From the NCBI GenBank assembly GCA_023475455.1, contig JAMCVR010000178.1, positions 1 to 11,088 of the forward strand: a stretch of 11,088 nucleotides of DNA, read 5' to 3'. This DNA is from Thermoplasmatota archaeon (lineage in GTDB: Bacteria > Pseudomonadota > Gammaproteobacteria > Burkholderiales > Thiobacillaceae). Shown here one piece after another: positions 1 through 11,088 of this stretch. The translations under genes and the position numbers were made by a program. Every line of letters begins with the position of its first letter. The stretch's first letter is position 1. The notes beneath the pieces were generated by a model. The model saw only the letters and a program-made list of their open reading frames with translations. It made no database searches and was not told the origin of the DNA.

Positions 1-204
1 ACCCCAACACGATTTTGCATGCCACCAGCAAGCAGCATCGACTGGTCGTCATTGGGGTCGGCCGTATCAAGGATCACCAGGGTTTCCCCCAAGGGCTGTG
101 AAGACAGGAATGGCGTCGGATTTTTTTACGTCAGCAGCATTTGGGTAATATATCCCTCTGAACGCTTTCGGAAAAAACAATAGGGTGCATTCAAAGACCT
201 GGGC
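1..204. other. Unassigned flank downstream of the eamA-like gene
   Basis: No gene can be supported here. On the minus strand a frame opens at a GTG at 77, with a GGGGGA stretch a few bases upstream, and runs off the window edge. Its roughly 25 visible residues (LDTADPNDDQ and onward) match no family I recognise. A plus-strand frame from 3 is open but stops near 98-101, and another plus frame is open to about 183. Both could be shadows. After the EamA stop codon there is only a weak inverted repeat (GCATT...AATGC), followed at some distance by a short T run on the minus strand, which is too poor to call a terminator. The operon may therefore continue leftwards. Confidence 0.35.
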
Positions 205-1102
205 TCAATGCCCATGGCGATGATGGATATCCGGAAAGTGTGGATGTTTGTGGGTGATGACAGCATGCCGATGGGGATGGCTGTGCGGCTCGCTGCCATC
301 CCCGTCGAAATCGTGTTCGTGCTGGTGATGCGCGTCGTGAACGTGTGGATGGGTGTGTTCGAGCGGCTCATGCGTGTGCGCATGTTCGTGACGCTCGGTC
401 AGATGCAGCCAGACACCCGCACTCATGAGTCCGGCGGCCAGCCAGAACGGCGCGGGCGTCGCTTCGTCCAGCAGCAGGATGGCGATGGCGGCGCCGATGA
501 ATGGTGCGGTGGAGAAATAGGCGCCGGTGCGGGCCGTGCCCAGACCACGCAGCGCCCGCACGAAAAGAACCAGGCTCAGGCCATACCCCACCAGGCCCAC
601 CGCCATGGCTGCGCCCGCGGCGGGCCAGGCGGGCAGGGATGCGCCCAGTAACAAGGCGAGGCTGGTGTTGACCACGCCGGCGGTCCAGCCCTTGGCCCCG
701 GCAATGAACAGGGCGTCCGATCCGGAAACCCGGCGCGTCAGGTTGTTGTCGATGGCCCAGCACAAACAGGCGGCAGCGATGGCCAGGGGGCCGATCCAGT
801 CCGGCGTCGCGCTGCCGGCGGTGGGCCAGGCAAGCACCGCGCCGCCCGCGACGATGAGCAGCATGCCGAGCACGATACGGCGGTCGGCGTTTTCCCTGAA
901 GATCACCCAGGCCAGCGCAGCAGTGAAGACCGCCTCCAGATTGAGCATGAGGGAGGCGGCGCCCGCATCGGTATGGGTGAGGCCGGACACCAGCAGGATC
1001 GGCCCCAGCATCCCGCCGAAGACGATGGCACCCGCAAGCCAGCGCCATTCCCCTGTTGCCAGCCCGCTCGATTTCCAGCCGCGATCCCGCAGCAGGCGGA
1101 TC
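205..1102 (-). pseudogene. 3' part of the EamA transporter gene (second copy) with the true His-rich C-terminus
   Basis: This is the downstream copy of the EamA gene left by the 698-bp duplication. In the native frame it repeats the second portion of the permease and then reads through 404-205 into the authentic C-terminus, which is present only once. The native tail is 66 residues with 24 histidines in HxH and HH patterns (for example HEHAHTHEP and HHRHGH), a typical metal-binding extension. As assembled, this part has no start codon of its own with a ribosome site. It sits inside a longer open frame (205-1746) whose upstream half is out of frame with the gene, so it is probably not translated as such. 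If the duplication is an assembly error, this segment is simply the end of the 352-aa EamA gene. Confidence 0.75.
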
Positions 1103-1800
1103 GCAGCCAGACACCCGCACTCATGAGTCCGGCGGCCAGCCAGAACGGCGCGGGCGTCGCTTCGTCCAGCAGCAGGATGGCGATGGCGGCGCCGATGAAT
1201 GGTGCGGTGGAGAAATAGGCGCCGGTGCGGGCCGTGCCCAGACCACGCAGCGCCCGCACGAAAAGAACCAGGCTCAGGCCATACCCCACCAGGCCCACCG
1301 CCATGGCTGCGCCCGCGGCGGGCCAGGCGGGCAGGGATGCGCCCAGTAACAAGGCGAGGCTGGTGTTGACCACGCCGGCGGTCCAGCCCTTGGCCCCGGC
1401 AATGAACAGGGCGTCCGATCCGGAAACCCGGCGCGTCAGGTTGTTGTCGATGGCCCAGCACAAACAGGCGGCAGCGATGGCCAGGGGGCCGATCCAGTCC
1501 GGCGTCGCGCTGCCGGCGGTGGGCCAGGCAAGCACCGCGCCGCCCGCGACGATGAGCAGCATGCCGAGCACGATACGGCGGTCGGCGTTTTCCCTGAAGA
1601 TCACCCAGGCCAGCGCAGCAGTGAAGACCGCCTCCAGATTGAGCATGAGGGAGGCGGCGCCCGCATCGGTATGGGTGAGGCCGGACACCAGCAGGATCGG
1701 CCCCAGCATCCCGCCGAAGACGATGGCACCCGCAAGCCAGCGCCATTCCCCTGTTGCCAGCCCGCTCGATTTCCAGCCGCGATCCCGCAGCAGGCGGATC
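405..1800. repeat. Perfect tandem duplication, 2 x 698 bp, within the eamA-like gene
   Basis: Copy one is 405-1102 and copy two is 1103-1800. I saw no mismatch between them. The 10-base word gcagccagac occurs at 405, at 1103 and again at 1801, so the unit is bounded by a 10-bp direct repeat. The bases just outside differ. The length leaves remainder 2 on division by three, so the gene is frameshifted. Deleting either copy restores a continuous 352-codon gene (1961 to 1103 joined to 404 to 205). No transposase, terminal inverted repeats or target-site signature is present. A 10-bp direct repeat at the ends fits slippage or short-homology recombination, but could also be an overlap used by an assembler. 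Confidence 0.95.
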
Positions 1801-1961
1801 GCAGCCAGACCGAGACCGCTGCCCAGATAGAGTAGCCCGGCCAGCAGCAAGGTCGGCAACTCGCCCACCAGAAGCTTGACCAGCGGCGTGCTGCCACCGA
1901 ACAGGGCGGCGGCGACGAGGGCGGGCCAGATGACCGAACGTGTATTGCGCATTTCATCCAC
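903..1961 (-). CDS. EamA/DMT-family transporter, His-rich tail lost by frameshift at a duplication
   Basis: This is a drug/metabolite-transporter superfamily permease of the inner membrane. Native residues 1-286 hold two EamA repeats of about five hydrophobic helices each, starting with the segment after MRNTRSV (helix 1 includes AALFGGSTPLVKLL). The frame then meets the 698-bp duplication junction at 1103. Because 698 is not a multiple of three, the last 66 residues are a frameshifted tail with no family character. Collapsing the duplication gives a protein that is also 352 aa long by coincidence, but with the true His-rich end. The start is either GTG at 1961, overlapping the ATPase stop, or ATG at 1952, one base after it. 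Either implies translational coupling to the ATPase. The ATG fits the family slightly better. The exported substrate is unknown. The metal-operon context and His-rich tail suggest a transition metal, by inference only. Confidence 0.8.
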   Translation of the reverse strand: MDEMRNTRSVIWPALVAAALFGGSTPLVKLLVGELPTLLLAGLLYLGSGLGLAAIRLLRDRGWKSSGLATGEWRWLAGAIVFGGMLGPILLVSGLTHTDAGAASLMLNLEAVFTAALAWVIFRENADRRIVLGMLLIVAGGAVLAWPTAGSATPDWIGPLAIAAACLCWAIDNNLTRRVSGSDALFIAGAKGWTAGVVNTSLALLLGASLPAWPAAGAAMAVGLVGYGLSLVLFVRALRGLGTARTGAYFSTAPFIGAAIAILLLDEATPAPFWLAAGLMSAGVWLRSACCGIAAGNRAGWQQGNGAGLRVPSSSAGCWGRSCWCPASPIPMRAPPPSCSIWRRSSLLRWPG

Positions 1962-3762
1962 GATAGGCCAGCAAACGCAAAGCGTTCACCACCACCACCA
2001 CGGTCGAGCCTTCGTGAATCAGCACCGCCACGCCGATCCCCGCCCAGCCGAACAGGGTGGCGGGAATCAGCAAGGCCACCACGCCCAGCGACACGTACAA
2101 ATTCTGGCGAATGATGCGCCGCGATGCGCGGCTCAAGGCCACAGCGAACGGCAGCTTGGAGAGATCGTCGGCCATCAGCGCCACGTCCGCGGTTTCCAGC
2201 GCCACGTCGGTGCCGGCGCCACCCATGGCGATGCCGACCGTGGCACGCGCCATCGCCGGGGCGTCGTTGACCCCGTCGCCGACCATGGCCACTTGTCCGT
2301 AACGTTGTCCGAGTTCTTCCATGGCCTTGACCTTGTCTTCCGGCAACAAGCCCGCTTCCACTTCATCCAGGCCGACCGCGTCGGCAATGGCTCGGCCCAC
2401 GCGTTCATTGTCGCCGGTGAGCATGATGGTCTTGCGAATGCCGAGTTGATGCAGTCGCGCCAGCACCTCGCGCACATCTTCTCGCGGCGTGTCGGCGAAC
2501 GGCAGCTTGGAGAGATCGTCGGCCATCAGCGCCACGTCCGCGGTTTCCAGCGCCACGTCGGTGCCGGCGCCACCCATGGCGATGCCGACCGTGGCACGCG
2601 CCATCGCCGGGGCGTCGTTGACCCCGTCGCCGACCATGGCCACTTGTCCGTAACGTTGTCCGAGTTCTTCCATGGCCTTGACCTTGTCTTCCGGCAACAA
2701 GCCCGCTTCCACTTCATCCAGGCCGACCGCGTCGGCAATGGCTCGGCCCACGCGTTCATTGTCGCCGGTGAGCATGATGGTCTTGCGAATGCCGAGTTGA
2801 TGCAGTCGCGCCAGCACCTCGCGCACATCTTCTCGCGGCGTGTCGGCCAGGGCCACGACGCCGAGGAACTGCCCGTCCGCCTGGATCAGCATGATGGTTT
2901 TACCCTCTGTCTGAAGGCGCTCTGCCTGCTGCTGAATCGCGTCCGGAATGACTTCGCCATCAAACATCTTGGCGTTACCAATCGCCACTTTCTGCCCATC
3001 GAATTCGGCGCGCACGCCTTTTCCTGTCACGGACTCGGTCTCCCCCGCCTCGCTCCAGGTCAAACCACGCCCCTTCGCCTCCGCCACAACCGCCTGTGCA
3101 AGCGGATGGGCGCTGCGGCTTTCCACGGCGGCGGCAAGGGTCAGCAGACGTGCCTCGTCTCCGCCGACCGCGACGACATCGGTCACCCTGGGCTTGCCGA
3201 GAGTCAGGGTGCCGGTCTTGTCGAAGGCGACGGCCGTGAGCATGCCGAGATTTTCCAGATGGGCGCCGCCCTTGATCAGCACGCCGCCGCGCGCGGCGCG
3301 GGCGATGCCGGAGAGCACCGCCGACGGAGTGGCGATGGCGAGCGCGCAGGGCGAGGCCGCCACCAGCACCGCCATGGCGCGGTAGAAGGATTCGGCGAAG
3401 GGAAAACCGAGCAGGGGTGGCAGCACGATGAGCAGCACGGCGCCCACCAGCACCACGGGCACGAAAATCCGCTCGAAGCGGTCGGTGAAGCGCTGGGTGG
3501 GGGACTTCTGTGTCTGCGCCTCGGCCACCATATCCACCATGCGCGCGAGCGTGCTCTCGCGCGCGAGCCGGGTCACCTCGATGACCAGCACCCCCTCGCC
3601 GTTGACCGTGCCGGCGAACACCGGGTCCCCCGGCTGCTTGTCCACCGGCATGGATTCGCCGGTGACCGGAGACTGGTCCACCGCCGACTCGCCGGACAGC
3701 ACCCGGCCATCGGCGGGGATGCGCTGGCCAGGCTTGACGATCACCCGGTCGCCGCGCTGCAA
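1954..3762 (-). CDS. P1B-type metal ATPase, C-terminal fragment with internal 117-aa repeat
   Basis: This open frame of 602 codons begins at a TTG (3762) with no convincing ribosome site. It carries everything of the ATPase after residue 288: the actuator-domain TGES, the membrane motif SPC, the phosphorylation motif DKTGT, and the HP, TGDN and GDGVNDAP motifs of the P and N domains. The last membrane region holds HEGST, 20 residues from the end. SPC together with HEGST is the signature pair of the P1B-4 subgroup, associated with Co, Zn, Ni or Fe export. An in-frame 351-bp duplication repeats 117 residues, so TGDN and GDGVNDAP occur twice, which would be expected to wreck the hydrolase fold. 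With both ATPase duplications collapsed it joins the upstream fragment as one 773-aa protein, normal for the family. Confidence 0.85.
   Translation of the reverse strand: MQRGDRVIVKPGQRIPADGRVLSGESAVDQSPVTGESMPVDKQPGDPVFAGTVNGEGVLVIEVTRLARESTLARMVDMVAEAQTQKSPTQRFTDRFERIFVPVVLVGAVLLIVLPPLLGFPFAESFYRAMAVLVAASPCALAIATPSAVLSGIARAARGGVLIKGGAHLENLGMLTAVAFDKTGTLTLGKPRVTDVVAVGGDEARLLTLAAAVESRSAHPLAQAVVAEAKGRGLTWSEAGETESVTGKGVRAEFDGQKVAIGNAKMFDGEVIPDAIQQQAERLQTEGKTIMLIQADGQFLGVVALADTPREDVREVLARLHQLGIRKTIMLTGDNERVGRAIADAVGLDEVEAGLLPEDKVKAMEELGQRYGQVAMVGDGVNDAPAMARATVGIAMGGAGTDVALETADVALMADDLSKLPFADTPREDVREVLARLHQLGIRKTIMLTGDNERVGRAIADAVGLDEVEAGLLPEDKVKAMEELGQRYGQVAMVGDGVNDAPAMARATVGIAMGGAGTDVALETADVALMADDLSKLPFAVALSRASRRIIRQNLYVSLGVVALLIPATLFGWAGIGVAVLIHEGSTVVVVVNALRLLAYRG
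2144..2845. repeat. Perfect in-frame tandem duplication, 2 x 351 bp, in the ATPase P domain
   Basis: Copy one is 2144-2494 and copy two is 2495-2845, identical by reading. Only 2 bases (gc) are shared at the breakpoints. The unit is exactly 117 codons, so the reading frame continues through both copies. It covers about residues 595-711 of the collapsed ATPase, beginning near ADTPREDVRE and ending in DDLSKLPF, and includes TGDN and GDGVNDAP. No mobile-element hallmarks flank it. Confidence 0.95.
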
Positions 3763-4526
3763 TGCTTCGACCCTTTTCCTGTCACGGACTCGGTCTCCCC
3801 CGCCTCGCTCCAGGTCAAACCACGCCCCTTCGCCTCCGCCACAACCGCCTGTGCAAGCGGATGGGCGCTGCGGCTTTCCACGGCGGCGGCAAGGGTCAGC
3901 AGACGTGCCTCGTCTCCGCCGACCGCGACGACATCGGTCACCCTGGGCTTGCCGAGAGTCAGGGTGCCGGTCTTGTCGAAGGCGACGGCCGTGAGCATGC
4001 CGAGATTTTCCAGATGGGCGCCGCCCTTGATCAGCACGCCGCCGCGCGCGGCGCGGGCGATGCCGGAGAGCACCGCCGACGGAGTGGCGATGGCGAGCGC
4101 GCAGGGCGAGGCCGCCACCAGCACCGCCATGGCGCGGTAGAAGGATTCGGCGAAGGGAAAACCGAGCAGGGGTGGCAGCACGATGAGCAGCACGGCGCCC
4201 ACCAGCACCACGGGCACGAAAATCCGCTCGAAGCGGTCGGTGAAGCGCTGGGTGGGGGACTTCTGTGTCTGCGCCTCGGCCACCATATCCACCATGCGCG
4301 CGAGCGTGCTCTCGCGCGCGAGCCGGGTCACCTCGATGACCAGCACCCCCTCGCCGTTGACCGTGCCGGCGAACACCGGGTCCCCCGGCTGCTTGTCCAC
4401 CGGCATGGATTCGCCGGTGACCGGAGACTGGTCCACCGCCGACTCGCCGGACAGCACCCGGCCATCGGCGGGGATGCGCTGGCCAGGCTTGACGATCACC
4501 CGGTCGCCGCGCTGCAATGCTTCGAC
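3017..4526. repeat. Perfect tandem duplication, 2 x 755 bp, splitting the ATPase gene
   Basis: Copy one is 3017-3771 and copy two is 3772-4526, identical by reading. Two bases (cc) are shared at the breakpoints. The length leaves remainder 2 on division by three, so the ATPase is cut into two frames. The unit covers about residues 286-537: the actuator-domain TGES, several membrane helices, SPC, DKTGT and part of the nucleotide-binding domain. Only 171 bases separate it from the 351-bp duplication. Confidence 0.95.
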
Positions 4527-5381
4527 CCGCACCTCGATCTCCACGCCATCCCGCTGCACGATGGCGGTCTTGGGGGCCAGCTCCGCCAGCGCCTCGATGG
4601 CCTTGCGCGCGCGATCCATGGCCATGTGCTCCAGCGCATGCCCCAAGCTGAACAGGAACAACAGCAGCGCACCTTCAACCCAGGCGCCGAGCGCCCCGGC
4701 ACCCGCCGCCGCGACGATCATCAGGGTGTCGATGTCGAAGCGGCGGCTCTTCACGCTCTGCCAGGCGTCGCGCAGGGTATAGACGCCGCCCGCCGCGTAG
4801 GCGCCCAGCAGCAGGCCGACCGAGAGCGTGCGCGGCCAGCCGGCGAGCCCCGCGAGCCAGCCCGCCAGCAACAACAATCCCGCCACGCCGCTCACGATCA
4901 GCTCGCGATGCTCGGCGAACCAGCCGGCTGCGCGGCCTTCCTCCAGCACGGCATAGCCCAGCGCCTCGATGCGCCGGACGATGGCCTGGCGCGCGATCTT
5001 TTCGCTGTCGTATTCCAGGCGCAGGCGTTCTGCTGCGTAGCTCACCGAGGCCTCCAGCACGCCGTCGGTGCGTTGCAGGGCATGCTTGATCACGGTGGCG
5101 CAGGTGGCGCAGTCCATGCCGTCGATGCGCAGGCTTTCATGGTGGAAGCGATTGGCGATCTTCGCGCCGGCCGCCTGCGCCAGCTCGCGCACCCGGCTCA
5201 CGCTGAAGCGCTGCGGATCGTAATGCAGGCACAGGCGCGCGGCTCCGTCTTCGCGCACGACGTGCGCCCGCTCCAGGCCCTCGGCCTGCAGCAGTTCGGT
5301 CAATCGCCCCACGCAGGTATCGCGCTCGTCAGGGACGTCTGGCAGGAGCAGGGACAAATCCAATGTACATTTTTCGGCCAT
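3741..5381 (-). CDS. P1B-type metal-transporting ATPase, N-terminal fragment ended by frameshift
   Basis: This is an inner-membrane cation-exporting ATPase that couples ATP hydrolysis to metal export. Residues 1-75 look like a degenerate metal-binding domain without CxxC. A second, intact heavy-metal-associated domain follows, with GMDCATCA (Cys91, Cys94). After the first membrane helices come TGES (322-325), SPC (425-427, the metal site in helix 6) and the phosphorylated Asp469 in DKTGT. The frame is native to residue 537. It then crosses the 755-bp duplication junction and ends after nine unrelated residues. Start ATG at 5381 has GGAG seven bases upstream and lies 18 bp after the BASS gene stop. 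Collapsed with the downstream fragment it makes a 773-aa protein of P1B-4 type. Co, Zn, Ni or related divalent metals are likely substrates, inferred from SPC and HEGST. Presence of an intact N-terminal CxxC domain is less usual for that subgroup. Confidence 0.88.
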   Translation of the reverse strand: MAEKCTLDLSLLLPDVPDERDTCVGRLTELLQAEGLERAHVVREDGAARLCLHYDPQRFSVSRVRELAQAAGAKIANRFHHESLRIDGMDCATCATVIKHALQRTDGVLEASVSYAAERLRLEYDSEKIARQAIVRRIEALGYAVLEEGRAAGWFAEHRELIVSGVAGLLLLAGWLAGLAGWPRTLSVGLLLGAYAAGGVYTLRDAWQSVKSRRFDIDTLMIVAAAGAGALGAWVEGALLLFLFSLGHALEHMAMDRARKAIEALAELAPKTAIVQRDGVEIEVRVEALQRGDRVIVKPGQRIPADGRVLSGESAVDQSPVTGESMPVDKQPGDPVFAGTVNGEGVLVIEVTRLARESTLARMVDMVAEAQTQKSPTQRFTDRFERIFVPVVLVGAVLLIVLPPLLGFPFAESFYRAMAVLVAASPCALAIATPSAVLSGIARAARGGVLIKGGAHLENLGMLTAVAFDKTGTLTLGKPRVTDVVAVGGDEARLLTLAAAVESRSAHPLAQAVVAEAKGRGLTWSEAGETESVTGKGSKHCSAATG

Positions 5382-5399
5382 GATGCTGCTCCTTGAAGA

Positions 5400-6416
5400 C
5401 TATCGATTGCTACCGGGCGCGCGCTGCCCGGCGATCCGCTCAACCGCCGCCACACCGTCGCGTTCCCGAAAAATGACCGAAGGCACCACGCGCATGTAAA
5501 TCAGCTCGCCGACCAGTTCCACCAGCGTTTGGGTCACGATGACGGCGGATGCCAGAATCCAGGCGTCCGGCAAGGCCAGAGCCAGCGGAAGCACCACCAG
5601 CGAATTGCGCGTTCCCGCGCTGAAGATCAGCGCTCTTCCCGCCTGCGTATCCAGGCGAAACGCCCGCGCCGTCAGGCGGGCGAGAAAAGGCATGACGGCC
5701 ATGAAGGCCACATAGACCGGCACGGCTTTCGCTACCAAGGGGAGATATTCTTCGATTCTGCCCACTTGAGAGGCCACGACGAGGAGCAAGGCGAGCGCCA
5801 TGAACGGCACCGGGAGCCATGCGCTGGCTTCGAGCCAGATGGCGCCGCTGCGGCGGCGCCTGGCCCAGAACTCGGTGGCCAAGGCCAGCCCCAGCGGCAA
5901 AACGATGAGTACGAGAAATGCCTCCAGGAACGGCCCCGCATTCATGACCTGGGCGACCTGTTCGCCCATGAACAGCCACAGATACACAGGCAGGAGAAGC
6001 ATCTGGGCGAGCAGCAGCAAGGGGGTGGAGGCAAGAACAAGCCGCGCATTCCCGCGACCGAGGTGGGTAAAGACGATGACGTAGTCAATGCAGGGGGTAA
6101 GCAGCACAAGATATACCCCGAGTAGCAGCGGCGGGTGCTGCGGCAAGAGATGCGACAACAACCAAACCAGGGCGGGGACAACAGCAAAATTGACCGTGAG
6201 CAGCGCCGCCGCAAACCGCCGGTTGGCGAATGCCTCGCGCAGGTGAAGAAACGGAATCTGGGAAAACATCCCGTACAGCATGACCGCCAGCACGGGAGAG
6301 ATCAAAAATTCCAGGCCCGATCCAAAGGCCGGATGCCGCAAGCCAAGACCCGCTCCGATGGCCAATGCCGCGGCGTAGAGCGCGATTTGATTCTTTTCCA
6401 GTTGTTCCCGTGTCAT
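5400..6416 (-). CDS. BASS/ACR3-like membrane transporter (arsenic resistance / bile acid:sodium symporter family)
   Basis: This is an intact 338-aa inner-membrane protein with about ten hydrophobic helices. It belongs to the bile acid:sodium symporter superfamily, near the ACR3-type arsenite exporters. The helix-4 region carries TPCIDYVIVF, whose Cys sits where ACR3 proteins have an essential Cys. A late helix reads LVELVGELIYMRVVP and keeps a Glu comparable to the conserved one in ACR3. The length is right for the family. ATG at 6416 is preceded by GAGGA and overlaps the stop of the upstream small ORF (ATGA), which suggests translational coupling. The ATPase starts 18 bp after its stop. No arsR or arsC is visible here, so arsenite is only one candidate substrate. 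Another anion or metal-linked substrate is possible in this metal operon. Unlike its neighbours it is untouched by the duplications. Confidence 0.82.
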   Translation of the reverse strand: MTREQLEKNQIALYAAALAIGAGLGLRHPAFGSGLEFLISPVLAVMLYGMFSQIPFLHLREAFANRRFAAALLTVNFAVVPALVWLLSHLLPQHPPLLLGVYLVLLTPCIDYVIVFTHLGRGNARLVLASTPLLLLAQMLLLPVYLWLFMGEQVAQVMNAGPFLEAFLVLIVLPLGLALATEFWARRRRSGAIWLEASAWLPVPFMALALLLVVASQVGRIEEYLPLVAKAVPVYVAFMAVMPFLARLTARAFRLDTQAGRALIFSAGTRNSLVVLPLALALPDAWILASAVIVTQTLVELVGELIYMRVVPSVIFRERDGVAAVERIAGQRAPGSNR

Positions 6417-6514
6417 GGCGCTTCCTCAAGACGCACAGGGCCATCGATACGACGGTTTTCGGGGATGTGGAGCCCGCCCATCAGATTGCCCAGCATCCGT
6501 TCGAAGAATCCCAT
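6413..6514 (-). CDS. Small ORF of 33 aa, coupled to the BASS transporter gene
   Basis: The ATG at 6514 has a strong Shine-Dalgarno (AGGAG, six bases upstream), and the frame ends in TGA overlapping the ATG of the transporter gene in an ATGA arrangement. The peptide starts MGFFERMLGNLMGG and ends RLEEAP. Its first part is hydrophobic to amphipathic, and the rest is charged (PENRRIDGP). An in-frame ATG at 6556 would add 14 residues but lacks the ribosome site. It matches no family I know. It may be a small membrane-associated protein of the operon, or a leader ORF that sets translation of the transporter. The ribosome site and stop-start overlap are seen directly. That it is a functional peptide is inference. 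Confidence 0.55.
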   Translation of the reverse strand: MGFFERMLGNLMGGLHIPENRRIDGPVRLEEAP

Positions 6515-6556
6515 GATGTGCTCCTTTGCAATTGGGTTTTTAAGGTGTCCGGGCAT

Positions 6557-6579
6557 GGCGCGGACCGCGAGGCCGCGCC
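6557..6579 (-). other. GC-rich stem-loop after the PII-like gene
   Basis: The arms ggcgcgg (6557-6563) and ccgcgcc (6573-6579) can pair around a 9-base loop, immediately after the PII stop codon. On the minus strand no T run follows, so it does not look like a standard terminator. It may be an intercistronic RNA hairpin that affects transcript stability or partial termination before the small ORF. Confidence 0.4.
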
Positions 6580-6930
6580 TTACTCATGCATGCCCTTGAT
6601 AAGAATCGCCCGGACGATATCGGTCACATAAATCCACCCCGCTTCGGCCTGGCCGGTGCGGGCGGTTCGCTTGATGATTCCAACCAGTTCGTCCACCTGG
6701 TCGTCCTCGCAGATCAGCTCCAGTTTCGATTCGTGGATGACCGCCTCGGCCAATTCGATGGAATAGCGTTGTTCCGCAGCATCCACCGCCTTCAGCAGGC
6801 TTTGCACCGGGACGACGGCAAGATTGCGGCAGCCGGCCGTTCCGCCTGCGTTGCACAGCCCCGAGCCTTTCAATGCGCGAATCACGTCGGCAATGCGGTT
6901 GTTGTGGATATAAGCCTTGATTTCTTTCAT
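6580..6930 (-). CDS. PII-like signalling protein linked to the RND pump (PII-NG type)
   Basis: This 116-aa protein has the PII ferredoxin-like layout. The N-terminal strand and helix (MKEIKAYIHNNRIADVIRAL) are present, and the C-terminal part keeps ARTGQAEAGWIYVTD in place of the classical B-loop region. The usual uridylylated T-loop is replaced by a different stretch around residues 36-66. The Lys that contacts ATP phosphate in GlnB/GlnK (K90) aligns with Trp99 here. Cysteines lie at 26, 34 and 74. A divergent PII group lying beside CzcA-type efflux genes is known (often called PII-NG), and this fits it. A role in metal sensing or pump regulation is inference. It is unlikely to do GlnB/GlnK nitrogen signalling. 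ATG at 6930 has GGAG seven bases upstream. This is the complete copy; a truncated copy lies in the hybrid ORF upstream. Confidence 0.85.
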   Translation of the reverse strand: MKEIKAYIHNNRIADVIRALKGSGLCNAGGTAGCRNLAVVPVQSLLKAVDAAEQRYSIELAEAVIHESKLELICEDDQVDELVGIIKRTARTGQAEAGWIYVTDIVRAILIKGMHE

Positions 6931-6955
6931 GTCATTTCTCCTGTCTCATGATTGC

Positions 6956-6977
6956 GGGCGGCCGCAACGGGCCGCCC
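6956..6977 (-). other. Intercistronic hairpin, copy in front of the complete PII gene
   Basis: The arms gggcggcc (6956-6963) and ggccgccc (6970-6977) pair perfectly around a 6-base loop, with one further C-G pair possible outside. It lies between the stop codon of the duplicated pump tail and the PII ribosome site. On the minus strand there is no T run after it, so a standard terminator is unlikely. It may limit read-through or stabilise the upstream message, so that pump and PII are made in different amounts. Confidence 0.5.
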
Positions 6978-6981
6978 GTGT

Positions 6982-7695
6982 TTACTTCGCTTGCCTGCGC
7001 TCGCGGCGGTTCTCCACCCATTCGTACATCAGCGGCAGCAGCAGCAGCGTCAGCGCGGTGGAGGTGAACAGTCCACCCACTACTACCGTCGCCAGCGGAC
7101 GCTGTGTTTCCGCCCCGACGCCGCTGGATAGCAGCATCGGAACCAGGCCGAAGATGGCGATGGACGCCGTCATCAGCACCGGCCGCAGGCGCAATGCCGC
7201 ACCTTGCCTGACCGCCTCCCTGACCGACAGCCCCTGCCGCCTCTGGTCGTTGAGGAAGGACACCAGGACTATTCCATTGAGCATCGCCACCCCGAACACC
7301 GCGATGAAGCCGATGGCAGAGGGCACCGACAGGTACTGCCCGGTGAGCGCGAGCCCGATCACGCCGCCGATGGTGGCGAACGGCACGTTGGCGATGATGA
7401 GCGTGGCGTAGGTGAGCGAATTGCGGGCGGTTCGCTTGATGATTCCAACCAGTTCGTCCACCTGGTCGTCCTCGCAGATCAGCTCCAGTTTCGATTCGTG
7501 GATGACCGCCTCGGCCAATTCGATGGAATAGCGTTGTTCCGCAGCATCCACCGCCTTCAGCAGGCTTTGCACCGGGACGACGGCAAGATTGCGGCAGCCG
7601 GCCGTTCCGCCTGCGTTGCACAGCCCCGAGCCTTTCAATGCGCGAATCACGTCGGCAATGCGGTTGTTGTGGATATAAGCCTTGATTTCTTTCAT
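6982..7695 (-). CDS. Hybrid ORF: PII residues 1-91 fused in frame to the RND pump C-terminus
   Basis: This 237-aa frame was created by the 765-bp duplication. It has the true PII start and ribosome site (GGAG upstream of ATG at 7695) and reads PII residues 1-91. At the junction it passes directly into residues 883-1028 of the CzcA-type pump, so KRTAR is followed by NSLTYAT. The pump part holds about four membrane helices with no periplasmic domain. The PII part lacks its last 25 residues. If the duplication is real, this would be translated as a membrane-tethered partial PII, of unknown and probably no function. If it is an assembly error, the ORF does not exist in the organism. It should not be read as a natural PII-transporter fusion family. 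Confidence 0.6.
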   Translation of the reverse strand: MKEIKAYIHNNRIADVIRALKGSGLCNAGGTAGCRNLAVVPVQSLLKAVDAAEQRYSIELAEAVIHESKLELICEDDQVDELVGIIKRTARNSLTYATLIIANVPFATIGGVIGLALTGQYLSVPSAIGFIAVFGVAMLNGIVLVSFLNDQRRQGLSVREAVRQGAALRLRPVLMTASIAIFGLVPMLLSSGVGAETQRPLATVVVGGLFTSTALTLLLLPLMYEWVENRRERRQAK

Positions 7696-7720
7696 GTCAT
7701 TTCTCCTGTCTCATGATTGC

Positions 7721-7742
7721 GGGCGGCCGCAACGGGCCGCCC
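7721..7742 (-). other. Intercistronic hairpin downstream of czcA
   Basis: This is the upstream copy of the 8-bp perfect stem (gggcggcc / ggccgccc, loop gcaacg), starting a few bases after the pump stop codon and ending before the PII-start ribosome site. It is duplicated exactly by the 765-bp repeat. It lacks a T tract. A part in message stability or graded expression is inference. Confidence 0.5.
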
Positions 7743-7746
7743 GTGT

Positions 7747-10700
7747 TTACTTCGCTTGCCTGCGCTCGCGGCGGTTCTCCACCCATTCGTACATCAGCGG
7801 CAGCAGCAGCAGCGTCAGCGCGGTGGAGGTGAACAGTCCACCCACTACTACCGTCGCCAGCGGACGCTGTGTTTCCGCCCCGACGCCGCTGGATAGCAGC
7901 ATCGGAACCAGGCCGAAGATGGCGATGGACGCCGTCATCAGCACCGGCCGCAGGCGCAATGCCGCACCTTGCCTGACCGCCTCCCTGACCGACAGCCCCT
8001 GCCGCCTCTGGTCGTTGAGGAAGGACACCAGGACTATTCCATTGAGCATCGCCACCCCGAACACCGCGATGAAGCCGATGGCAGAGGGCACCGACAGGTA
8101 CTGCCCGGTGAGCGCGAGCCCGATCACGCCGCCGATGGTGGCGAACGGCACGTTGGCGATGATGAGCGTGGCGTAGGTGAGCGAATTGAACGCCGTGTAG
8201 AGCAGGATGAAGATCAGCCCGATGGTGAGCGGCACGATCAGCGCAAGCTTCGCCATGGCGCGCTGCTGGTTCTCGAACGCGCCGCCCCACTCGATCCAGT
8301 ATCCGGCGGGCATCTTCACCTCGCGCTTGATCTTCGCCTCCGCCTCCTTCACGAAGCTGTCCACATCGCGCCCCTTCACGTCCATCTGGATCACGGCATA
8401 GCGCTGCAACTGCTCGCGCCGCACGAAGGAGTAGCCTTCGTCCAGTTCCACCGTCGCCACGCTGGAAAGCGGTACCAGCGCGCCCGCGCGGGTGCGGATC
8501 GGGATGTTGTTGATGGCTTCCACGCTGTTGCGGAAATCGGGCGCGAGCCACACCTGGATGTCGAAGCGCTTGACGCCGTCGATCAGGGTGGAAACGGCCT
8601 TGCCGCCGATGCCGGCCTGCACTATCTCCAGGATGTCGTCGGCGTTCAAGCCCAGGCGCGCCGCCGCTTCGCGGTTGACCTTCACCACCATCTGCGGCTT
8701 GCCCTTGTTGGCTTCCAGCGCCAGATCGGCTACGCCGGGCACCTCCTCCAGCACGGACTTGAGCTCGGCGGACAGCCGGTCCAGCGTGGCCAGATCCTCG
8801 CCGTAGAGCTTCAGGGCCAGCGTGGCGCGCACCCCGGAAATCAGTTCCTCCACGCGCATCTGGATCGGCTGCGTGGCGGCGATGACCGCGGTCGGCACCT
8901 GTTTCTCCAGCACCGCCTGCATGTCCTGCGTCAACTCCGGAAAGGAAATCGCCTGCGGCCACTGCTCGCGCGGCTTGAGGTCGACCAGGATTTCCATGTA
9001 GTTGACGTCCGCCGTCTCGCCCTTCTCCGCGCGCCCGATCATGGCGACGGCCGATTTCACCTGCGGGAAACGCTTGAGCGCGGTTTCGATGCCCTCGGAA
9101 ATGCGGATCGACTCCTCCAGCGAGGTGGAGGGAATGCTGGTCACGCGGAACATGATGCCGCCTTCCTGCAGGGTCGGCATGAACTCCTTGCCGAGGAAGG
9201 GAAACAGCGCGAGCGTTCCGATCAGCAGGGCCAGTGCGCCGCCGACCACCTTGCGCTTGTTTTCCAGCGCCCAATCCAGCAGCGGCAGATAAAGCCTTTT
9301 CGCCCACTTCACCACGAAGGTGTCCTTCTCCTCCTTCGGCTTCAAGATCAGCGCGGAGAGCACCGGCACCAGAGTCATGGTCAGCACCAGCGAACCGATC
9401 ATGGCGAAGGTGATGGTGAGCGCCATCGGCTTGAACAGCTTGCCCTCCAGCCCGGTCAGCGAAAACAGCGGCAGGAACACCACGATGATGATCAGGATCG
9501 CGAAGGCGGTCGGATTGATCACCTCCCGCGCCGCTTCCAGGATCACATGGGTCTTGTTGACCGTCTGCCCGACCTTGTGGCTGAGCAGGCGGAAGCCGTT
9601 TTCCACCATCACCACGGCGCCGTCCACCATCATGCCGATGCCCACGGCCAGCCCGGCCAGCGACATGAGATTGGCCGACAGCCCCCACTGCTGCATCAGG
9701 ATGAAACTGATCAGCATGGCCAGCGGCAGCGCCAGGATCACCACGATCGCGGAGCGCACCTCGCCCAGAAAGAGAAACAGGATGATCGCCACCAGGATCG
9801 AGCCCTCGACCAGGGCGCTCTCGGCGGTCTTGACCGCCTTCTCCACCAGGTCGGTGCGGTCGTAGATCGGCTTGATCGTCACGCCCGCGGGCAGGGCCTG
9901 CTGCACCGTCTTCAGTTTTTCCTTGACGGCGTCCACCACGTTCTTGGCGTTCTCGCCGATACGCTGCAACGCCATCCCCAGCACCACCTCCTCGCCGTTC
10001 TTGGTGACCGCGCCGCTGCGCAACGAGGGGGCTTCCTTGACATCGGCCACATCGCGCACATAGACCGGTGTGCCTTCCTTTTCGGTAACGACAATGCCGC
10101 CGATGTCCTGCGTATTGGAAACCAGGCCCAAGCCGCGCACCAGATACTGTTCCTGGCCCAGATTGACGTATTGCCCGCCCACCTGGCGGTTGTTGGCGGT
10201 CAGCGCTTCCATCACGTCCTTGAAGGTCAGCCCGTACTTGATAAGCCGCCGCGGGTCGATCAGCACTTGGTATTGCTTCTCGTCGCCGCCCCAAGACATG
10301 ATGTCATCCACCCCGGGTGCGGTGCGCAGAACGAGCCGCACGCTCCAGTCCTGCAGGGTGCGCAGATCCATCCCGGAAAGTTTTTTGTCGGCCGATTCGA
10401 CGGTGTACCAGAACACCTGGCCCAAGCCAGAACTGTTAGCGCCGAGCTCCGGTTCGCCATAGCCTTCCGGTATGCGGCCCTTGGCTTCCTGCAGTTTTTC
10501 GCTCACCAGGCGGCGGGCGAAATAAATGTCCACATTGTCCTTGAAATACACACTGACATAGGACAGCCCGAACAGGGACACCGAGCGGATTTCCTCCACC
10601 CCCGGCAGGCCGGCCATGACGCCTTCCACCGGAAAGGTAAGCAGCTTTTCCACATCCTCGGCCGCAAGCCCCGGCGCTTCCGTATAAATATTCACCTGCA

Positions 10701-10833
10701 CCGGCGTCACGTCGGGGAAGGCATCCACCGGCACTTCGCGCCAGGCCTTCACGCCCAGCATCACCACCAGGGCGAAGGCCACCAGCACCAGCACCTTGTA
10801 GCGCAGCGAGAGATCAACAATCTTGTTCAACAT
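7747..10833 (-). CDS. czcA: CzcA-type heavy-metal efflux RND pump (inner-membrane subunit)
   Basis: This is an intact 1028-aa proton-driven pump of the heavy-metal RND family, normal in length. It would work as a trimer with the adaptor CzcB and an outer-membrane channel to expel cations from the periplasm. The N-terminal helix, the first periplasmic domain (FPDVTPVQVNIYTEAPG region), a central membrane block, the second periplasmic domain and the last helices are all present. The helix-4 motif reads GIGMMVDGAVVMVEN. Asp404 and Glu411 match D408 and E415 of the Cupriavidus pump, but the D402 position is Gly398. In the RVEELISGVR segment a Glu stands where CusA has a Met, which argues against Cu/Ag specificity and for divalent metals. 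The exact metal is unresolved, so the symbol denotes family. ATG at 10833 follows the adaptor stop by 10 bp, with a GAGGGG ribosome site between. Confidence 0.9.
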   Translation of the reverse strand: MLNKIVDLSLRYKVLVLVAFALVVMLGVKAWREVPVDAFPDVTPVQVNIYTEAPGLAAEDVEKLLTFPVEGVMAGLPGVEEIRSVSLFGLSYVSVYFKDNVDIYFARRLVSEKLQEAKGRIPEGYGEPELGANSSGLGQVFWYTVESADKKLSGMDLRTLQDWSVRLVLRTAPGVDDIMSWGGDEKQYQVLIDPRRLIKYGLTFKDVMEALTANNRQVGGQYVNLGQEQYLVRGLGLVSNTQDIGGIVVTEKEGTPVYVRDVADVKEAPSLRSGAVTKNGEEVVLGMALQRIGENAKNVVDAVKEKLKTVQQALPAGVTIKPIYDRTDLVEKAVKTAESALVEGSILVAIILFLFLGEVRSAIVVILALPLAMLISFILMQQWGLSANLMSLAGLAVGIGMMVDGAVVMVENGFRLLSHKVGQTVNKTHVILEAAREVINPTAFAILIIIVVFLPLFSLTGLEGKLFKPMALTITFAMIGSLVLTMTLVPVLSALILKPKEEKDTFVVKWAKRLYLPLLDWALENKRKVVGGALALLIGTLALFPFLGKEFMPTLQEGGIMFRVTSIPSTSLEESIRISEGIETALKRFPQVKSAVAMIGRAEKGETADVNYMEILVDLKPREQWPQAISFPELTQDMQAVLEKQVPTAVIAATQPIQMRVEELISGVRATLALKLYGEDLATLDRLSAELKSVLEEVPGVADLALEANKGKPQMVVKVNREAAARLGLNADDILEIVQAGIGGKAVSTLIDGVKRFDIQVWLAPDFRNSVEAINNIPIRTRAGALVPLSSVATVELDEGYSFVRREQLQRYAVIQMDVKGRDVDSFVKEAEAKIKREVKMPAGYWIEWGGAFENQQRAMAKLALIVPLTIGLIFILLYTAFNSLTYATLIIANVPFATIGGVIGLALTGQYLSVPSAIGFIAVFGVAMLNGIVLVSFLNDQRRQGLSVREAVRQGAALRLRPVLMTASIAIFGLVPMLLSSGVGAETQRPLATVVVGGLFTSTALTLLLLPLMYEWVENRRERRQAK

Positions 10834-10843
10834 GGTCGTCCCC

Positions 10844-11088
10844 TCAATCCGCGTCGCCGATTTGCGACTTGAGCAGGCGTGCCTTGAGGGCGTAGGCGCC
10901 GCTCACCACCACCGCTTCTCCAGCCTCGACGCCGGACTTGATCACGACCCGCCCCTGCGTGCGGTCGCCCACTTGCACCGCGCGCGGTTCGAACCCGCCT
11001 TTTTCAGCTACGAACACGGTCGGTTGTCCCTGCACCAGCAACACGGCATCTTCAGGCAGCAGCAACACTTTGGTGCTCGACCCCGTGT
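10844..11088 (-). CDS. czcB: CzcB/CusB-type periplasmic adaptor subunit, C-terminal part
   Basis: Only the last 81 residues are in the window; the 5' part lies beyond the right edge. They form the end of a membrane-fusion (HlyD-like) adaptor. LLLPEDAVLLVQGQPTVFV is followed by a strand-rich stretch with VQVGDRTQGRVVIKSGVEAG, then EAVVVSGAYALKARL, a characteristic membrane-proximal ending in this family. Such adaptors bridge the RND pump and the outer-membrane channel and may bind metal themselves. The stop lies 10 bp before the pump start, so the two are co-transcribed and made together. An outer-membrane channel gene (CzcC-like) would be expected further upstream. Assignment to family is firm; Czc versus Cus cannot be told from this piece. 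Confidence 0.85.
   Translation of the reverse strand, partial: TGSSTKVLLLPEDAVLLVQGQPTVFVAEKGGFEPRAVQVGDRTQGRVVIKSGVEAGEAVVVSGAYALKARLLKSQIGDAD

Follow-up and report, generated by a model that had tools for sequence, protein, structure and literature searches.

Four exact tandem duplications in a metal-efflux operon of a Thiobacillaceae contig: probable sequence artefacts

The stretch of DNA analysed here (the window) comprises positions 1–11,088 of contig JAMCVR010000178.1 of GenBank assembly GCA_023475455.1 and carries on its minus strand a metal-efflux operon for, in window order, an EamA-family transporter, a P-type ATPase, a permease, a P-II-like protein and the efflux pump CusA, followed by the end of an adaptor gene. 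Four perfect head-to-tail duplications lie in this operon. Comparison with other sequences strongly suggests that all four are artefacts, by whichever route they arose, and that the organism has single copies. An artefact is preferred because four perfect copies stand on one contig, genes are broken, the same ATPase allele was found without the two duplications that interrupt it here, relatives are single-copy wherever these sites could be compared, and neither deletion nor inversion was seen beside the duplications. If the window went unflagged, its EamA and ATPase genes would be annotated as split and a spurious P-II/CusA fusion protein would be recorded.

The duplications and the genes they interrupt

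The window was scanned at every lag from 20 to 5,999 for exact runs of at least 30 bases. Exactly four tandem duplications were found, with units of 698, 351, 755 and 765 bp that start at 405, 2144, 3017 and 6657, respectively. The exact runs extend over 405–1112 (lag 698), 2144–2496 (lag 351), 3017–3773 (lag 755) and 6657–7423 (lag 765). Each duplication consists of two copies with zero mismatches, and one set of copies amounts to 2,569 bp. Junction homology is 10, 2, 2 and 2 bases for duplications 1 to 4. A preliminary description of this DNA had given the same four units, in two copies without a mismatch, and the same breakpoint homologies; both were reproduced by the scan. There are no N bases at the four joins. 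The window has no inverted copy of comparable size, its longest listed inverted pair being 44 nt at 77 %, and neither a deletion nor an inversion was seen beside the duplications in the comparable parts.

Duplication 1 (copies at 405–1102 and 1103–1800, with the 10-base homology at 405–414, 1103–1112 and 1801–1810) lies within the EamA-family (DMT) transporter gene (205–1952, minus strand; Pfam PF00892), which has a His-rich C-terminus and onto which the related protein P0241 maps as two overlapping pieces. The heavy-metal P-type ATPase gene (1954–5381, minus strand; PF00122, PF00702 and PF00403) is interrupted by duplication 2 (2144–2494 and 2495–2845) and duplication 3 (3017–3771 and 3772–4526). 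Duplications 1 and 3 shift the frame, their units of 698 and 755 bp each leaving a remainder of 2 on division by three, and the 351 bp of duplication 2 keep the frame and lengthen the ATPase by 117 residues. Duplication 4 (6657–7421 and 7422–8186) takes in the greater part of the P-II-like gene together with the 3′ end of the CusA gene. As it spans the boundary of the two, both genes are intact in one copy and its junction creates in addition a P-II/CusA fusion open reading frame (ORF) of 237 aa (6982–7695, minus strand); not every unit therefore breaks a gene. The removal of one copy of each unit had been said to restore genes of normal length, and the spans bear this out exactly: 3,428 bp for the ATPase gene (5381–1954) equal 774 codons plus 351 plus 755, and 1,748 bp for the EamA gene (1952–205) equal 350 codons plus 698.

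Single copies in other sequences

About 5.8 billion proteins were searched with the 602-aa ATPase ORF of the window as query. Two proteins of 773 aa each were recovered, P0121 encoded on an ENA contig of 10,621 bp and P0122 on one of 8,990 bp. Three consecutive exact pieces of the window translation (residues 1–537, 538–711 and 712–773; tblastn) together account for the full length of P0121, from which P0122 differs in one residue. The ATPase allele of the window thus exists without duplications 2 and 3, the two on which this comparison bears; the two ENA contigs may or may not share the sample of the window.

An EamA homologue at E ≤ 1e-150 is present in 14 of the 117 genomes in G235's family, and an ATPase homologue at E ≤ 1e-200 in 13 of the 117. 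Flanks and units were searched as separate pieces in 248 loci, and a unit was counted as present when at least 60 % of its length was matched. Units 1 to 4 were present in 24, 18, 15 and 5 loci, respectively, and none of these loci holds a second copy at this threshold. The distance between flanks is 698 bp in both loci that have the two flanks of unit 1, 351 bp in 12 of 13 for unit 2 (342 bp in the other), 755 bp in 11 of 12 for unit 3 (720 bp in the other) and 764 bp in 4 of 4 for unit 4. The last figure was obtained from longer stretches of seven loci, the remaining three of which lack one or both flanks; before the stretches were lengthened no locus had both. Comparison with relatives had been proposed in the preliminary description, and all loci with both flanks proved to be single-copy (2/2, 13/13, 12/12 and 4/4). 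The loci are possibly not independent; L239/L240 and L242/L243 have near-equal, not identical, match values. Units 1 to 3 are 81.8–93.7 % identical in DNA between window and relatives, and the matches listed for the relatives (16 EamA, 14 ATPase) contain no internal stops. L251 matches unit 4 partially at two places (68 % and 78 %), which lie in order within one diverged stretch and were not counted as two copies.

The junctions themselves were sought among the best 120 of 8000 protein matches for EamA, of 4171 for the fusion ORF and of 8000 for the ATPase. No convincing match across any of these three junctions, those of duplications 1, 2 and 4, was found. The ATPase junction was crossed by none of its 120 matches. 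Four EamA matches (P0315, P0334, P0335 and P0360) and one fusion match (P0065) were aligned over a junction, with 9/56, 5/59, 7/59 and 6/48 matching residues on the far side for the EamA four and 17/50 for P0065; with so few far-side matches, these alignments were taken as forced extensions. The junction of duplication 4 was not found in viral contigs either. Nowhere in these searches did an independent sequence, from this organism or a relative, convincingly show a junction.

The background frequency of exact tandem duplications with units of 100–5000 bp was estimated from control loci of assemblies other than that of the window, and it applies to those assemblies. In 80 genome_contigs loci (1,554,593 bases) the only unit was one of 108 bp (in L049), and no unit was found in 125 further loci (1,118,250 bases; 120 from the viral collection and 5 others). 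All 255 loci, partly overlapping and 2,963,297 bases in total, are free of units above 108 bp. The window, with four units in 11 kb, departs widely from this background. In a relative, L253, the CusA gene is interrupted at 13298–13489 by 112 N with an identical 40 bases on either side, apparently an unmerged overlap or scaffold-join error in that assembly; unmerged overlaps do therefore occur in public assemblies.

Junction homology and rival explanations

The homology expected by chance was obtained from 800,000 random breakpoints at lags of 300–800, placed in the parts of the window in which no sequence occurs twice (4528–6656 and 7723–11088). At least 2 shared bases were found at 18.5 % of these breakpoints and at least 10 at 0.0056 %. 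Four junctions that sum to at least 16 bases have P = 8.9e-5, so that the observed 10, 2, 2 and 2 bases exceed the chance-level microhomology that had been assumed in the preliminary description. The excess is owed mainly to duplication 1. Its two 10-base sites are not conserved in L252, despite 91–95 % identity around them, and the repeat is thus particular to the window sequence. Hairpins were considered as a cause and rejected: the longest perfect stems, two of 9 bp with loops of 3–12, are at 3541–3564 and 6955–6978, inside units 3 and 4 and far from any breakpoint, and no stem of at least 8 bp occurs in units 1 and 2.

Short homology at a junction is a mark of template switching, whether in vitro or in a living cell, and cannot by itself tell artefact from biology. 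The homology above chance that chimeric molecules would leave is present here, and in-cell template switching would leave it too; repair-like junctions do not make perfect tandem copies real. Given the excess homology, chimeric, template-switched molecules that were walked twice fit better than blind contig joining, and this is somewhat favoured as the specific route. A polymerase in amplification or library preparation would slip back by 350–770 bases and re-prime on 2–10 shared bases, which would yield a few chimeric molecules or reads. These would introduce backward links into the assembly. An assembler could interpret a backward link as a loop and perhaps traverse it twice, giving exactly two identical copies, and a forward-skipping link would form a side branch that is discarded. 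The loss of forward-link branches would explain why four duplications and no deletion are seen in the comparable parts. Chimeras of multiple displacement amplification (MDA) likewise have short homology at their joins; excerpts of PMC1855051 report complementary bases, from 2 to as many as 21, at 90.9 % of direct joins within 10 kb. False cycles occur in metagenome assembly graphs of natural communities according to PMC9104695, and a false backward link in the window could have been walked twice in a like manner; that text concerns circular elements, and linear tandem copies are an extension proposed here.

Several points weigh against this reading. The case for an artefact is indirect, being one of comparison. 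The same excerpts of PMC1855051 give 337 of 348 MDA joins within 10 kb as inverted and just 11 as direct, whereas the joins of the window are direct in four of four cases and no long inverted copy accompanies them. The exact loop artefact was not found described among the literature matches listed, and the complete lack of duplications in the 125 mostly viral-collection loci indicates that such an error is uncommon there.

An artefact could also have come about through end-to-end joining of overlapping contigs or gap-filled ends with the overlap left untrimmed. Perfect identity, exactly two copies and the restriction to duplications would all follow, in agreement with the single copies elsewhere, and the 40-base overlap left around the N run of L253 is an unmerged end of this kind. 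Blind joins, however, should share 0–1 bases at about 82 % of junctions, and here at least 2 are shared at all four (P = 0.0012) and 10 at one of them (P = 5.6e-5), so the homology is not at the level of chance; the joins, moreover, contain no N. Identical overlaps as long as 350–765 bases are normally merged by assemblers. Because of the junction homology and this merging, end-to-end joining fits less well and is given only a lesser share of the probability assigned to artefacts as a whole. The preference for an artefact expressed in the preliminary description is thus upheld by the single-copy ATPase and by the relatives, and the mechanism it offered, overlaps joined end to end with chance microhomology, agrees less well with the data.

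Real duplications, a reversible switch included, are unlikely as a whole; were they genuine, this operon would stand out as a hot spot of rearrangement. Microhomology-mediated template switching might have produced recent tandem duplications in part of the population, possibly several per event and perhaps under metal stress, and metal-efflux genes could plausibly be targets of amplification. The few-base homology resembles that of amplification junctions in starving E. coli, where, in the part of PMC3161906 consulted, microhomology was present at all 40 sequenced junctions and complex events by repeated template switches were proposed. The duplications described there, however, are kilobases long and confirmed by PCR and sequencing, compared with 351–765 bp for the units of the window. 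Such duplications are improbable here: three of the four change or break genes that selection would favour, all four are needed on one chromosome, the same ATPase allele was found unduplicated, and no duplicated site occurs in the relative loci compared. A single replication event in the cell with repeated backward template switches on 2–10 bases, which would place four duplications in about 8.5 kb as a bacterial counterpart of serial template-switch rearrangement, is considered very unlikely. A reversible on/off switch, in which duplication is followed by precise loss of one copy, has a precedent in the capsule genes of pneumococci (Waite et al. 2001, 2003, cited after an extract of PMC4022640), in which a duplication within a gene alters expression; recombination can indeed remove perfect tandem copies inside genes. 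That system, in the same extract, is recognised phase variation, whereas the four duplications of the window are read from sequence alone and are absent in the relatives compared. Four switches at once in neighbouring genes would be required, only the single-copy state was seen elsewhere, with no site duplicated in relative loci, and L252 does not share the 10-base repeat of duplication 1; a switch is accordingly regarded as extremely improbable.

Further features of the operon

The intact P-II-like protein (116 aa; 6580–6930, minus strand) was assigned by PF00543, and its scores against the NCBIfam P-II models are far under the cut-offs. Its gene adjoins that of CusA, and the gene order is the same in the relatives L249, L250, L253 and L254. 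The CusA/CzcA-family RND efflux pump is intact (1,028 aa; 7747–10833, minus strand; TIGR00914 above cut-off). It is followed by the 3′ part of a CzcB/CusB-type adaptor gene, a 74-aa ORF (10844–11068, minus strand) that matches positions 211–271 of 271 of TIGR00999 below cut-off; the start of the model would lie beyond the window. P0121 (773 aa), the unduplicated form of the ATPase, matches TIGR01525.

Between the ATPase and P-II-like genes the window has an open frame for an SBF/ACR3-like permease of 338 aa (5400–6416, minus strand; PF01758, with TIGR00832 acr3 below cut-off), the best genome_contigs match of which is 89 % in protein. In L249, L250, L253 and L254 the matches to the ATPase and to the P-II-like gene are only about 440–460 bp apart, and the permease is therefore absent from this place in these relatives. 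Eight ORFs were scanned against Pfam and none of their matches is a mobile element, no search aimed at mobile elements having been made. A plasmid search with the window gave matches of less than 90 % identity, none of which covers 80 % of the window.

The window probably derives from a betaproteobacterium, and its placement close to Thiobacillus is tentative. The named ATPase matches come from mixed organisms. The four best named EamA matches are Thiobacillus, yet this genus accounts for only 6 of the 16 named among the 120 matches listed. The tail of the EamA-family protein (window 205–400) is very rich in histidine, for which a role in metal binding is plausible; relatives share this tail, with at least 10 His residues in the last 60 residues of 119 of the 120 homologues listed (median 22).

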